From contig NZ_FODY01000007.1 of the NCBI RefSeq assembly GCF_900110485.1, forward strand, positions 1-64,000: 64,000 nucleotides of DNA, given 5' to 3'. Origin of the DNA: Propionispora vibrioides. GTDB taxonomy: Bacteria > Bacillota > Negativicutes > Propionisporales > Propionisporaceae. How positions within the stretch are numbered: the stretch's first letter is position 1; every line of letters begins with the position of its first letter. Made by a program: the position numbers and the translations under genes. Shown one piece after another: positions 2,566 to 8,866 of the stretch. Under the pieces are notes generated by a model. That model worked only from the letters and a program-made list of their open reading frames with translations. It ran no database searches and was not told the origin of the DNA.

Positions 2566-3660
2566 CTAAACGATTTCCCTCCTTAAAGCGGTACTTTTCC
2601 TTGCAGCATTTGTTTTTATTGCAGCTACCTCTTCCGGCCGCAAAGCGCGCTCAAAACTACGGAGCCCAGACAATTTGAACCCATGCTTTTTACCTAGTTG
2701 CTCTATTGTTTCCACCTGCCTGACGGTTAATTCACGTCCTAATGTAAAATTTTCGTATCTTTTTTCCAGAGCCAGGATCATCGTTTCCGCCATGCAGGCG
2801 TAGGCGGTGCCGGCCGGAAAACCAAAATGCATGCCGAAATCCACCTGTCCCGGTACTTCAACAATACCGCCTTCAATGACCAAAATGTCGTCTCTCAGTT
2901 CTGCCACCTTTCTGGACACATTGCGCGGTCTGGCCACATCACACACGATAGCTCCCGGTTTCAGGTCTTCCGCCTCAATAATACTATCTACCGCACTGGT
3001 TACGGCAATAATGATGTCCGCCGTTTTTAATGCAGCTTTTGTATTGGACGTTACCCGCACAGCCAATCCTGTATGACGCATAATTTGTCCGGCCAGCCAT
3101 TCCAGCTTCGTTCCGTTGCGAGCGGCCAGTGTCAAGAAACGGACCTCTTTGGCCAAAATTTGCGCACAGGCTGCACCAATCGAACCGGTTGCCCCGAGTA
3201 TTAAAATATTAGCCTCCTCCAGCTTTATATCCATGATAGCGGCAGCCTGCCGTATTCCCTCAATAGCCGTGGCCACCGTATAGCTATTGCCTGTGGTAAC
3301 GGCAATATTTAGATGATCGGCAACGGTGATTCCCGCATCACCGACAATAGAGGTAAACGCTCCCAGGCCAACCACGTTTGCCCCCAGCTTTTCCGCGATC
3401 TTGCCAGCCTTGATTATCTTGTTCAGCACATATTTCTCCGGCAGCTCCAGCATTTGCCGCGATGTCAACGGGCAGCCGATAAACCAGCCCTCCGCTTCAT
3501 TGCAGGGTGATTGTATCCCGGTTATAGTGGAAACCTTAAAGGGAGGAACATATTTAATCAAGGTCTCTACGAACGGATCGGGCAAATCCTTAACTACGGG
3601 AAACTTCCGGCTTACATCTTTCGCCGTAAGAGGATGAAGGATAAATGCAAACTTTTCCAT
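2566..3660 (-). CDS. Acyl-ACP reductase-like NAD(P)-binding protein (cyanobacterial AAR fold)
   Basis: This 364-aa protein resembles cyanobacterial long-chain acyl-ACP reductase (AAR), which reduces acyl-ACP to fatty aldehyde. Landmarks in order are GLGAFTSIV (98-106), TTGNSYT (122-128), the Rossmann glycine motif GATGSIG (156-162), IEGGIVEVPG (262-271) and AYACMAET (286-293). Cys289 aligns with the cysteine that forms the acyl-enzyme in AAR. From similarity to shikimate-dehydrogenase folds it may be annotated only as a dehydrogenase. No aldehyde-deformylating oxygenase is in view, so the aldehyde, if made, must have another fate. It is third in a likely operon behind an HTH gene and a quinate-dehydrogenase-like gene. 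The alignment is from memory; substrate is unknown. Confidence 0.6.
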   Translation of the reverse strand: MEKFAFILHPLTAKDVSRKFPVVKDLPDPFVETLIKYVPPFKVSTITGIQSPCNEAEGWFIGCPLTSRQMLELPEKYVLNKIIKAGKIAEKLGANVVGLGAFTSIVGDAGITVADHLNIAVTTGNSYTVATAIEGIRQAAAIMDIKLEEANILILGATGSIGAACAQILAKEVRFLTLAARNGTKLEWLAGQIMRHTGLAVRVTSNTKAALKTADIIIAVTSAVDSIIEAEDLKPGAIVCDVARPRNVSRKVAELRDDILVIEGGIVEVPGQVDFGMHFGFPAGTAYACMAETMILALEKRYENFTLGRELTVRQVETIEQLGKKHGFKLSGLRSFERALRPEEVAAIKTNAARKSTALRREIV

Positions 3661-3810
3661 ACCGATTCCACTCCTTTCTATTAGACCTCTCCTGCAGTTA
3701 AACGCGAGTAGATGAACGAGGATTTTTTCGTCCAGTATTGGCGGGTTCTGGCACCAACGTTGGCCGGAAAAAAGACCGCTTAGCGTCTCGATTTAATTGT
3801 TGAATAAGGT

Positions 3811-4713
3811 CTATCCCCAGCACTCGATCCGGGGCCTTATATCCAGCTCGGTTAACCACCGTTCATAATCCCGTCCGGTAAGTTCTTCCGGCCGTTTGCC
3901 CGCTAAGGCAACAAGCACTCCTTCCAGCACATTCGTACCACAAGACCGTCCGCTCATCCATGGTGTAGTCGTTATCAGCGTCTTCACACCGCGTTCTTTG
4001 AGCAGCGCCATATCCTGGGCGGTAACGGTATTGGTGATAATGCTCTTGCCTGCCAAGCTATCCGGCATATACCGCCTGATATAATGAAAATCACCGGCAA
4101 TAACCGCCGCTTCACGAAAGTAACTGCCAAACCGGGGGGTTGCCTGTTGTTGACTTAATCCGGTGGGATAGAAAAACCGGACGGGGAGCCGGGTAATTAC
4201 AGGAGCCAGGCAACGCGCCAGCCTTGCCAGGCCGGTCAAGGTATGTAGCGGCAACGGCAAACCCACACCGAACAGTAAATCGCCAAAAACCAGCTTACTG
4301 CCCCGTTCCGTCAAGGCCTCGGCCATGCCAAAGCGATCTACCGCACAGACCAGCAGCACTGGCGTATCCTGGAATTGTACAATGCGCTGATCATCCAGAA
4401 ATTGAATGACCCGCCGTTCCAAAGTATTTTTAAGACCACTGCCATCGACGACCGGCGTTTTCCTGGCTACTCCTGCCAACCGGGCACTTTCGCGAAAGGT
4501 GTACCGCTTTCCACCGGCATAAATGTAAAGATCAGTTCCGCCCAGACCAAAAGCATCTACCTGCCCATCCAGTTGACGGATCAGTTGCATGGCCTTCTTT
4601 ATACTTCCGTCTGTGCCTATACGGGAAATAGCAACCGGTTGACCGCCGATTGTTTCGACGGAATGGTGATCGCGTTCTGACGCTCCCAGGCTAATACTGA
4701 CAATGCGTTTCAC
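3811..4713 (-). CDS. Conserved protein, possibly the family labelled quinate 5-dehydrogenase
   Basis: 300 aa, cytoplasmic, no signal peptide or membrane segment. The N-terminus (KRIVSISLGASERDHH) and the segments GLGGTDLY and TTTPWMSGRSCGTNVLEG resemble a small Firmicute family that I recall being named quinate 5-dehydrogenase by annotation transfer. I see no convincing dinucleotide-binding motif, so the enzymatic name is doubtful. Start is GTG at 4713 with AGGAGG nine bases upstream. It lies 16 bp after the HTH gene and 150 bp before the acyl-ACP reductase-like gene, so the three look like one unit. Function is not established. Confidence 0.5.
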   Translation of the reverse strand: MKRIVSISLGASERDHHSVETIGGQPVAISRIGTDGSIKKAMQLIRQLDGQVDAFGLGGTDLYIYAGGKRYTFRESARLAGVARKTPVVDGSGLKNTLERRVIQFLDDQRIVQFQDTPVLLVCAVDRFGMAEALTERGSKLVFGDLLFGVGLPLPLHTLTGLARLARCLAPVITRLPVRFFYPTGLSQQQATPRFGSYFREAAVIAGDFHYIRRYMPDSLAGKSIITNTVTAQDMALLKERGVKTLITTTPWMSGRSCGTNVLEGVLVALAGKRPEELTGRDYERWLTELDIRPRIECWG

Positions 4714-4729
4714 CCAGAAAACCCTCCTG

Positions 4730-5248
4730 CTATAAAAGCTGCTCCATAATGGTGCGTACCTTTGCCGGGTCTACATATTCGTCGGCCACCAACGGCGATT
4801 CGCCAATTTTAATGGCGACAATCTCCTTGTCAAGCAAGGCGCCAAATAGCGCGACTCTCTTATCGGAGCCAATGACAATCACCGTTTCATAGGTCCGCAA
4901 TTGGGAAAGAATGCGGATCAAATCGTTGAATAATTCCAGCCCTGACCTTTGCCTGATAAATTCCTGCCGGCCCTGCTCCGATAGCACCAGACAGTAATCA
5001 ATACCGGTTTGCCTGGCAATAGCATCAATTTCATCGCAGTTTTTTATCGGAAACCCGATAATGGCCACCTTACCGCCTTTCCGGATTTCTCCCAGCGTTT
5101 CCAGTTTAGAGATGACCGTACGGTCCAGTCCGAAAGCTTCGGACGTTTCCATCTGAGAGTAGCCCCGGGAACGCATAAGCATAATATTGTCCAGTATTTG
5201 GTGGATTTTATACAAATTGATGACTTTAGCTCCGATGCGCAACAACAT
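4730..5248 (-). CDS. Helix-turn-helix regulator of the reductase cluster
   Basis: 172 aa. Residues about 25-60 (GYSQMETSEAFGLDRTVISK) fit a helix-turn-helix: helix, turn with GLD, and a recognition helix with TVISKLE. The remainder (KVAIIGFPIKN, VIVIGSDKRVALFGALLD) looks like an alpha/beta ligand or oligomerisation domain that I cannot name. It is the first gene of the cluster and is preceded by an imperfect palindrome over its own promoter, which suggests autoregulation. Start ATG at 5248 with AAGGAC upstream. Confidence 0.6.
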   Translation of the reverse strand: MLLRIGAKVINLYKIHQILDNIMLMRSRGYSQMETSEAFGLDRTVISKLETLGEIRKGGKVAIIGFPIKNCDEIDAIARQTGIDYCLVLSEQGRQEFIRQRSGLELFNDLIRILSQLRTYETVIVIGSDKRVALFGALLDKEIVAIKIGESPLVADEYVDPAKVRTIMEQLL

Positions 5249-5298
5249 ACGCTCGTCCTTTCCCTGCCAAGTGCCAATATGATCAGGAAACTACCTAT

Positions 5299-5327
5299 AG
5301 TATATGTACACAATACGGTGCACATAC
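5299..5327 (-). promoter_or_regulatory. Promoter and candidate operator of the HTH-reductase operon
   Basis: Minus strand TATACT -10 (5299-5304). An imperfect inverted repeat, ATGTACAC-N6-GTGCACAT with one mismatch (5304-5325), fills the spacer towards a poor -35. The position is that expected for a regulator acting on its own operon. Confidence 0.5.
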
Positions 5328-5363: not shown

Positions 5364-5388
5364 TAAAAAAACAGAGCCGCAGCTCTGT
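5364..5388 (-). terminator. Terminator after dusB
   Basis: Seven-bp perfect stem ACAGAGC/GCTCTGT (5371-5377, 5382-5388) followed by seven T residues on the minus strand, 34 bp past the dusB stop. Confidence 0.8.
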
Positions 5389-5421
5389 TAAACATCAAAT
5401 ATTACCTATGACACTGACGTC

Positions 5422-6630: not shown

Positions 6631-6987
6631 TTATTCGATGGTAATCTTATCGCCAACCGTAATTTCAGGTTTATTTTCACCTTTTAATTCAATTTGACCC
6701 GGCAGTTCCACTTCGGAATGTCCGGAAAATTTGAATGTGCAATGACCCAGTTCGCTCAATGTTTTCGGTGCTTCGTCACCGATAGCAGTAATGATGTACT
6801 CATGTTTCCCCATCGTTACTTTGTCGCCCACGGCAAGAGGACTCTTAATTTCGCCTGGCGTATGCATAAGCGATATTTCTTCCAGTTCAGTTAAAGGACA
6901 TTTATCAAAAATAATCAAACAGCCGGTATCCTTCAATAATTCGAAGGCAGCATCTCCAACACTGGTAACAGTAACTTCGTATTTCAT
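6631..6987 (-). CDS. srlB: PTS glucitol/sorbitol-type IIA component
   Basis: Accepts phosphate from HPr and passes it to the IIB domain of SrlE. About 118 aa, the size of E. coli SrlB. The product begins MKYEVTVTSVG and contains FDKCPLTELEEISLMHTPGE followed by a beta-rich fold; the His in LMHTPGE is a candidate phosphorylation site by position, not proven. I prefer the ATG at 6987, behind GAGAGG, over the ATG at 7005, which has no ribosome-binding site. Last gene of the unit gutM-srlA-srlE-srlB. Confidence 0.85.
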   Translation of the reverse strand: MKYEVTVTSVGDAAFELLKDTGCLIIFDKCPLTELEEISLMHTPGEIKSPLAVGDKVTMGKHEYIITAIGDEAPKTLSELGHCTFKFSGHSEVELPGQIELKGENKPEITVGDKITIE

Positions 6988-7112
6988 TTTTACTTTTCCT
7001 CTCATTTCTTAGCACAAAGAATGTAAAGTTAATGAGTGACAAGCAACAGTAGCGTGGCCCGCCCTCATTAACCTTACAAATCTTATATACTATATTGTTT
7101 TTATGATGTGAC

Positions 7113-8090
7113 TTAGAACAACCCGATTCCCATGAAGTATGCAATTACTACGGATGCCGGGCCAGTGATAAGCCGTGTCATCAGAATAACCGGTACACCG
7201 ATTTCAATAGTTTGCGGTTCAGCTTCAGCCAAGCTCAAACCAACCGGATGGAAGTCGCAACCAACCTGCGGGTTGATGGCAAACAGAGCAGGCAGTGCAA
7301 AGGAAGGAGGAATATGGCCAGCGCCAATTTCCACACCAAGCAACACGCCAACTACCTGAGCGATAACGGCGCCTGGTCCAAGCATCGGTGACAGCACCGG
7401 CAGGGAGCACACAACAGATATGGCCAGCAAACCGGGGATACTGCCGGCATACGGCGATACGAAATTAGCAATGATATTACCAATCCCGGATTGTAAGATA
7501 ATACCGATAATCATACTTACAAATGCCATGAAAGGCAGAATGCTCTTAATACAAATATCAATGGTGTTACGACCGGCCTGGAAGAATACACCCACTACCT
7601 TACCGGCTGCTTTACCGAATCTGGCAAGGAAGTTGCTCTTTTCTTCCGGTTGAGGTTGTGCCGGTCTTGCAGCGGCGGCCGGTTTAGCGGCGGCCGGAGC
7701 TGCGCTCGGTACCGGAGCGGAACCGTCAAACATCGTAATGTTCTCTTCTTTAACATCCGATACATAAATATCTTCGGTAATGAATTGAGCCAGAGGACCG
7801 GTTTTACCTACAGGCAAAACATTAACGGTAGGAACACGTTTTTTCGGATATACACCGCAGCGAGCCGTACCGCCGCAGTCAACAACAACAACTGCGATTT
7901 GATCATCAGGAACACCGGTTTTAAAACCGTCTACCAGTTCGCAGCCAGTCATTTCAGCCAGTCTCAGAGCAATCGGATGAAAACCGCCGCCGGTAACGCA
8001 GACAACTTTGTTCTTTTGTTCGGTCGGTTGTATCACTAATGGTCCGCCAAAGCCGGCAGAGCCTCTTTCAATTTTTACTTTATTAAACAT
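7113..8090 (-). CDS. srlE: PTS glucitol/sorbitol-type IIB(C) component
   Basis: 325 aa. The N-terminal cytoplasmic IIB part (about 1-110) starts MFNKVKIERGSAGFGGPL and carries CGGTARCGVYPKKRVPTVNV, which includes the cysteine region used for phosphotransfer. An Ala/Pro-rich linker (about 127-150) leads to a C-terminal membrane part with several hydrophobic helices and the block QVGCDFHPVGLSLAEAEP. Start ATG with AGGAGG nine bases upstream. The substrate may be a polyol other than glucitol, because no SrlD is present nearby. Confidence 0.9.
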   Translation of the reverse strand: MFNKVKIERGSAGFGGPLVIQPTEQKNKVVCVTGGGFHPIALRLAEMTGCELVDGFKTGVPDDQIAVVVVDCGGTARCGVYPKKRVPTVNVLPVGKTGPLAQFITEDIYVSDVKEENITMFDGSAPVPSAAPAAAKPAAAARPAQPQPEEKSNFLARFGKAAGKVVGVFFQAGRNTIDICIKSILPFMAFVSMIIGIILQSGIGNIIANFVSPYAGSIPGLLAISVVCSLPVLSPMLGPGAVIAQVVGVLLGVEIGAGHIPPSFALPALFAINPQVGCDFHPVGLSLAEAEPQTIEIGVPVILMTRLITGPASVVIAYFMGIGLF

Positions 8091-8159
8091 CGCTTCATGC
8101 CTCCTAAAGATTTTAGATATTTATCAGGCTAACCCAAAAATTCTTATTAAAACTTGTGA

Positions 8160-8690
8160 TTAGTCTACGCTGATTCCATTTTTACGGAACATGTAAAGGG
8201 TTGCTTTTTCGGTAATAATGCCGCGCATTAAGATAACGATAACGCCTGTGATAAAGTATCTAACTGCCAGTTCGCCAAGAGGAAGGCCCAGAGTAGTGAT
8301 GCCTTGCGAAATACCCATCCAAACGAATAATTCAGCCGAGTTTGCATGCGGGAAAAGTCCAGTGATCGGATGAACGAAGGAAATTGATGCATCCTGGAAA
8401 GCCGGTTTATATTTTTCCGGCAGGAAACGACCAAAACTGTAGCAAATCGGATTAGTTAGGAAAAATACCGCAATAACAGGGAATATGGTGTAACGCAGGA
8501 TAATGTTGCCGGTACACATCTTAGCTATATTGTTTACTTTCTCTTCACCCACCAAACCAATCAGTGAGTTTACTGCCGTAATAAGAACAACAAGAGTGGG
8601 GATAATGCCTGTAACTAAGCCTGCAAAAACTGTACCGCCTTTTTGGAACAATGCGATAAAACCTGTCGCTAAATGTGCTAATAGATCCAT
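8160..8690 (-). CDS. srlA: PTS glucitol/sorbitol-type IIC component
   Basis: Membrane permease half that works with SrlE. 176 aa, close to E. coli SrlA, with several transmembrane helices (TGIIPTLVVLITAVNSLIG, YTIFPVIAVFFLTNPICYSF) and the conserved segment SFVHPITGLFPHANSAELF. The ATG at 8690 has AAGGAGG nine bases upstream; the upstream in-frame codon at 8717 lies before the Shine-Dalgarno sequence. Confidence 0.9.
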   Translation of the reverse strand: MDLLAHLATGFIALFQKGGTVFAGLVTGIIPTLVVLITAVNSLIGLVGEEKVNNIAKMCTGNIILRYTIFPVIAVFFLTNPICYSFGRFLPEKYKPAFQDASISFVHPITGLFPHANSAELFVWMGISQGITTLGLPLGELAVRYFITGVIVILMRGIITEKATLYMFRKNGISVD

Positions 8691-8866
8691 GAACTTATAC
8701 CTCCTTATAATTTGCACTGCCAGACTAATTCCACCGTAACCGTTCAGTCCCCCCGGACGCTTGCCGCTCCCCTCCCTTCGTGGGATTTGTAAACTGCTAT
8801 ATAAAATATAAGCCTATATTCTATATACTTTGTTAATGAAACCACCAGTTAGCTCTGCTCCTGTTC

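Follow-up and report, generated by a model that had tools for sequence, protein, structure and literature searches.

The reductase considered here has several described relatives. Among them is the cyanobacterial AAR (TIGR04058, PDB 6JZQ), which in the form of SeAAR carries the acyl group as an acyl-enzyme on C294 and uses NADPH (PMC7089970). Another is the N-terminal thioester-reductase domain of PigE, which acts in the prodigiosin pigment pathway fused to an aminotransferase; PigE activity in cell lysates yields an aldehyde from a thioester, but the purified enzyme is inactive (PMC8341465). Similarly, COG5322-type domains are fused to transaminases in KecF and PpKTFusion, and for that of KecF, a protein of secondary metabolism, formation of an aldehyde from a carrier-bound thioester has been proposed (PMC6498172, PMC10829540). 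A reductase-fold domain is also found in a peptide synthetase, the carmabin TAD (PDB 9E4S), and the title of a related entry reports a cysteine disulfide with dephospho-CoA.

In contrast to the fused domains of PigE, KecF and PpKTFusion, the reductase of Propionispora vibrioides (GCF_900110485.1) is free-standing. It is paired with an orphan protein bearing the database label 'quinate 5-dehydrogenase' (QDH) and stands under its own HTH regulator. The three genes lie in a window of 64,000 nt (NZ_FODY01000007.1, positions 1-64,000), and a literature search found no paper on an HTH-QDH-AAR operon. What is new is the setting: here, known reductase chemistry belongs to a unit that recurs across the phylum, has its own regulation and includes a new partner. 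Comparative analyses indicate that this misleadingly labelled operon carries the features of an AAR-type reductase, an orphan partner of the same predicted fold, and a dedicated predicted operator.

Organization of the cluster

The three genes fill positions 2566-5248 on the minus strand in the transcription order HTH-QDH-AAR, with dusB upstream of HTH and with greA and lysS downstream of AAR. HTH (4730..5248) encodes 172 aa, QDH (3811..4713) encodes 300 aa and AAR (2566..3660) encodes 364 aa, with 16 bp separating HTH from QDH and 150 bp separating QDH from AAR. A terminator-like hairpin with an 8-pair stem followed by a T run is present between dusB and the operon (5370..5389, minus strand), and a perfect 12/12 sigma-70-like promoter (TTGACA-17-TATAAT) is located between AAR and greA at 2559-2531. 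With a hairpin after dusB and a promoter before greA, the three genes seem to be transcribed together. The dusB-HTH hairpin region overall showed no enrichment over shuffled sequences. The first-pass annotation had described a three-gene cluster, and since the gene order is kept in dozens of genera at 46-85% identity, this is not a chance set of open reading frames.

Further upstream of dusB, the window holds sorbitol phosphotransferase system-like genes (6631-8717), and a homologue of the gene at 6631-7005 occupies the same place in the Propionispora locus L141. Additionally, an 80-base stretch in G000 contig 1 (318170-318251) matches a portion of the cluster sequence at 76% identity.

A predicted thioester reductase of the AAR superfamily

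The AAR protein retains both features reported at first reading, namely the GATGSIG dinucleotide loop (residues 156-162; 3175..3195, minus strand) and Cys289 (codon 2794..2796, minus strand), the predicted acyl-enzyme cysteine. G156 is present in 32/32 and G162 in 31/32 rows of a wide alignment that includes PigE and SeAAR. A cysteine occupies position 289 in 98 of 103 aligned homologues, and this residue aligns with C294 of SeAAR and also with the cysteine of PigE. AAR identity across the Negativicutes is 59-85%, and most AARs retain every catalytic residue.

The predicted model (pLDDT 88.9) has the three-part AAR fold and matches cyanobacterial AAR (6jzq) with Z 36.7 and rmsd 2.5 over 325 residues, at 26% identity and with the GATGxIG loop in common. 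The carmabin TAD follows at Z 34.4 despite only 18% identity, and the next matches, malic enzyme and shikimate dehydrogenase, drop to Z 13.9. Sequence matches in the PDB were 4ppm (PigE) and 6jzq. The fold match and the alignment of C289 with C294 uphold the view that this is an AAR-superfamily (COG5322-like) thioester reductase with an intact acyl-enzyme cysteine and predicted activity. For members that contain the cysteine, an NAD(P)H-dependent reduction of thioesters can be proposed with fair confidence.

The more specific designation 'cyanobacterial-type' was not sustained. In NCBIfam searches the best score was for PigE (NF053554, 220 bits against a cut-off of 850, reductase part only), followed by TIGR04058 (122.9 bits against 449.7) and glutamyl-tRNA reductase (46 bits, also below cut-off). 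The PigE and TIGR04058 results hold in 25 of 25 members of the wide AAR set. By profile score, PigE is thus the nearest characterised relative, and the cysteine, the CMAET motif, the glycine loop region and the GG motif are common to both proteins. Additionally, only one of the three ADO-docking residues is kept, as R73, R79 and K80 correspond to P74, N80 and K81 here, and a conserved arginine (R244) stands in place of SeAAR Y247, a residue in contact with H7 and the acyl tunnel. The operon differs from that of cyanobacterial AAR, and no match to the ADO family PF11266 was found in the P. vibrioides genome, although the control search found one in Synechococcus elongatus. Across the whole genome, spoIVA is present and an ADO match is absent, in agreement with the initial description of a sporulating host without an alkane pathway.

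Could AAR or QDH instead be a shikimate or quinate dehydrogenase? Pfam searches of AAR matched Rossmann families alone, with PF01488 on the Rossmann half at 48.9 bits, and QDH carries its database label. However, the aroE model gives AAR just 21 bits against a cut-off of 200.2, QDH shows no match at all, the NVTxPxK motif is absent from both proteins, and in the fold comparison of AAR shikimate dehydrogenase reaches only Z 13.9, compared with 36.7 for cyanobacterial AAR. The genuine AroE of this genome is encoded on contig 1 (270.9 bits, motif NVTIPHK). A tree of AAR with PigE, SeAAR and AroE had very long end branches and no starred fork, and gave no placement; AAR is therefore set apart from AroE by profile scores, motif and fold rather than by the tree. 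With all three lines against it, a shikimate or quinate dehydrogenase identity is exceedingly improbable and was rejected.

An orphan partner with an AAR-like predicted fold

The doubt previously cast on the quinate-dehydrogenase label of QDH was well placed, since the protein has neither a Pfam family nor a credible NCBIfam family. Pfam searches of QDH gave 0 matches, the single NCBIfam match was spurious, and the PDB sequence search returned no credible match. An uncharacterised 'quinate 5-dehydrogenase' has been reported, by annotation, as a conserved gene in Deinococcus-Thermus (PMC9425974), and it shares its annotation label with QDH.

The QDH model (pLDDT 92.6) has as its best solved structures 6jzu and 6jzq, both AAR (Z 13.8), with an rmsd of 4.3 A to AAR over 248 of 300 residues; the TAD (Z 12.9) and glutamate dehydrogenases (about Z 10) come next. 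Profile-profile comparison of QDH and AAR (hhalign, with narrow and wide alignments) gave no significant match, so that the shared fold rests on structure prediction at 4.3 A rmsd. This predicted fold suggests common descent of QDH and AAR. Inspection of the alignment shows that QDH lacks the GxxGxxG loop and the cysteine. Its invariant polar residues form a separate set.

Copies of QDH are also found in other settings. For instance, in several families solo paralogues (L123-L126, L129) are followed by genes for a small protein with an SCP2 domain and for a protein resembling amino-acid permeases. Divergent copies are present near PHP-domain, SfsA-like, patatin-like and methionine-synthase-like genes (L128, L132, L136, L137) or near a ThiL-like kinase (L133-L135), and a DUF3786 gene adjoins the L135 copy.

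Distribution and gene order

QDH was found in 291 and AAR (E < 1e-20) in 240 of 398 sampled genomes of the phylum. In the 395 of these genomes tabulated for co-occurrence, both are present in 234, QDH only in 56, AAR only in 5 and neither in 100. Among 40 relatives, AAR and QDH occupy nearly identical genome sets; in two genomes, both from a single genus, QDH is accompanied by a decayed AAR.

The order HTH-QDH-AAR is kept in distant families, usually between dusB and greA-lysS. The full arrangement dusB-HTH-QDH-AAR-greA-lysS is present in records titled Moorella thermoacetica, Anaerospora, Propionispora and others, and the nearest named relative, Propionispora sp. 2/2-37, has an identical gene order and an AAR of 84% identity. 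In Carboxydothermus and Desulfotomaculaceae-type loci, HTH directly precedes AAR with no QDH between them; in the HTH-AAR genomes that were searched, QDH is encoded at another site, where its neighbours are often genes for an SCP2-domain protein and a permease. No functional neighbour was found at the AAR-only loci of Fervidicella and Armatimonadota records. In some genomes, a protein of about 320 aa with a start motif like PVANGxLPRxHGG is encoded between dusB and HTH (L036:4093-5061, L040:3266-4225, L121:7468-8427), and the L036 copy matched no Pfam family.

The presence of QDH is associated with that of the sporulation gene spoIVA. In the same 395 genomes, QDH and spoIVA are both present in 271, QDH only in 19, spoIVA only in 63 and neither in 42, an odds ratio of 9.5 that ignores kinship. 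It is nevertheless very doubtful that the operon serves sporulation. Several of the 19 QDH-bearing genomes without spoIVA are more than 95% complete, and intact AAR is present in records of Succiniclasticum and Phascolarctobacterium, genera that are not known to sporulate. The QDH label also extends, by annotation, to Deinococcus-Thermus (PMC9425974).

A probable dedicated regulator and its predicted operator

The HTH protein has an XRE-like HTH profile match to 3vk0 (E 4e-4). An earlier observation placed a palindromic site on its own promoter, and this palindrome proved to be real and conserved. The predicted operator, TATGTACAC-AATACG-GTGCACATA, is located before the HTH gene at 5303..5326 (no strand assigned). 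A search of the window that allowed up to 3 mismatches found this one site, against an expectation of 0.04, and the site is also unique in the P. vibrioides genome. Of 101 distinct regions upstream of HTH, 93 contain a match to the consensus TGTRCACAA-NN-TTGTGYACA at no fewer than 15 of its 18 positions, a level that only one of 2020 mononucleotide shuffles reaches.

Among the 40 relatives, each genome has at most one operator. In 17 of 19 positive genomes it is found at the HTH promoter position expected from mapped gene positions; in the remaining two, G017 and G003, the site lies elsewhere and has two mismatches. Conversely, the operator is missing in all 13 tested QDH-AAR loci without HTH. 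It is also found in front of displaced members of the unit. For instance, a relocated solo QDH has a 17/18 operator just before its start (L126:6372-6391), and an AAR without an adjacent HTH has a 16/18 operator in front (L156:5929-5948). The HTH protein is therefore predicted from sequence to be a single-target autoregulator that follows its genes, and the operator pattern is as expected for such a regulator. The sign of control is presumably repression rather than activation.

A possible function for the operon

The operon probably constitutes a self-contained, autoregulated unit with a single regulatory target, made up of an acyl-thioester reductase and a partner of the same predicted fold. 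The computed basis for this reading comprises the fold, the active-site residues, the conserved gene order, the conserved single operator and the co-occurrence of the genes. A carrier protein or CoA would hand its acyl group to Cys289 of AAR, and hydride from NAD(P)H would then release this group as an aldehyde. QDH, with the same overall fold but neither the cysteine nor a standard glycine loop, may form a heteromer with AAR or may act next on the aldehyde. The HTH protein would recognise the 24-bp palindrome of its promoter and keep the operon repressed until a signal, probably a substrate or product, is sensed. Both the reaction and the heteromer are postulated on these grounds.

A more far-reaching version is possible but tentative. 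AAR and QDH may be the active and inactive AAR-fold subunits of a two-subunit thioester reductase. The enzyme would then be central to a previously undescribed pathway from acyl thioesters to aldehydes, one ancestral to both Clostridia and Negativicutes and controlled by a regulator that serves no other target. If the proposed reaction is true, most Clostridia and many Negativicutes would possess an unrecognised route from acyl thioesters to aldehydes, and the carriers would include acetogens used in biotechnology.

The destination of such an aldehyde could be ether lipids or plasmalogens, the possibility raised at first reading, as AAR-type reductases yield fatty aldehydes and some solo QDH paralogues lie near a patatin-like phospholipase or accompany a permease and a lipid carrier of the SCP2 type. 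However, the cluster has no linked glycerolipid or ether-lipid gene, and the P. vibrioides genome encodes a separate DUF2229 protein that is a candidate plasmalogen enzyme. This domain (G000 contig 22, 71360-72007) is within a 1299-aa open frame that may encode a plasmalogen-forming enzyme or a related activase. That the operon feeds ether-lipid or plasmalogen synthesis with fatty aldehydes or alcohols is therefore improbable.

Decay of the AAR slot

The AAR slot has not remained intact in all lineages. In one family, the cysteine is replaced by tryptophan and the glycine loop is changed (L048, L065, L068, L117), and at L111 the cysteine position is occupied by phenylalanine. Additionally, L107, L108 and L112 encode proteins of about 230-300 aa in the AAR slot that the AAR profile misses. 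These degenerate proteins (group A5) have only weak profile similarity to AAR (E 0.016) and are likely to descend from it; the intermediates at L048, L065, L068, L117 and L111 are better evidence for such descent than the A5 profile match. QDH remains beside the decayed slot in these lineages, an operator matching at 16-17/18 positions is retained at the tryptophan-variant loci, and the palindrome is still clear at L107.

Since the operon persists in lineages whose AAR slot has lost the cysteine, reductase chemistry is not the whole of its universal function, and no other observation argues as strongly for a second role. One alternative is that the conserved role is not catalysis at all. QDH and the AAR-slot protein would then work as a pair in ligand sensing or scaffolding, tuning the HTH regulator or some other process, with reductase activity either ancestral or a lineage-specific extra. 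The greater frequency of QDH than of AAR (291 compared with 240 of 398 genomes), a regulator with one target, and the retention of the operator with tryptophan-variant, broken-glycine-loop or unrecognisable proteins in the slot after QDH would all be consistent with such a pair. However, the catalytic residues of most AARs are strongly constrained, which is unexpected for a mere scaffold, and the A5 proteins are linked to AAR only by position and a profile match at E 0.016. A purely non-catalytic pair is thus unlikely, although less so than a lipid or sporulation role, and an autoregulated thioester-reductase unit is the preferred reading. The operator and the lineages that have lost the cysteine make the question directly testable.

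A different kind of disruption is seen at L028/L031 (G025 contig 12), where AAR is split into two overlapping frames by a frameshift or an assembly error.
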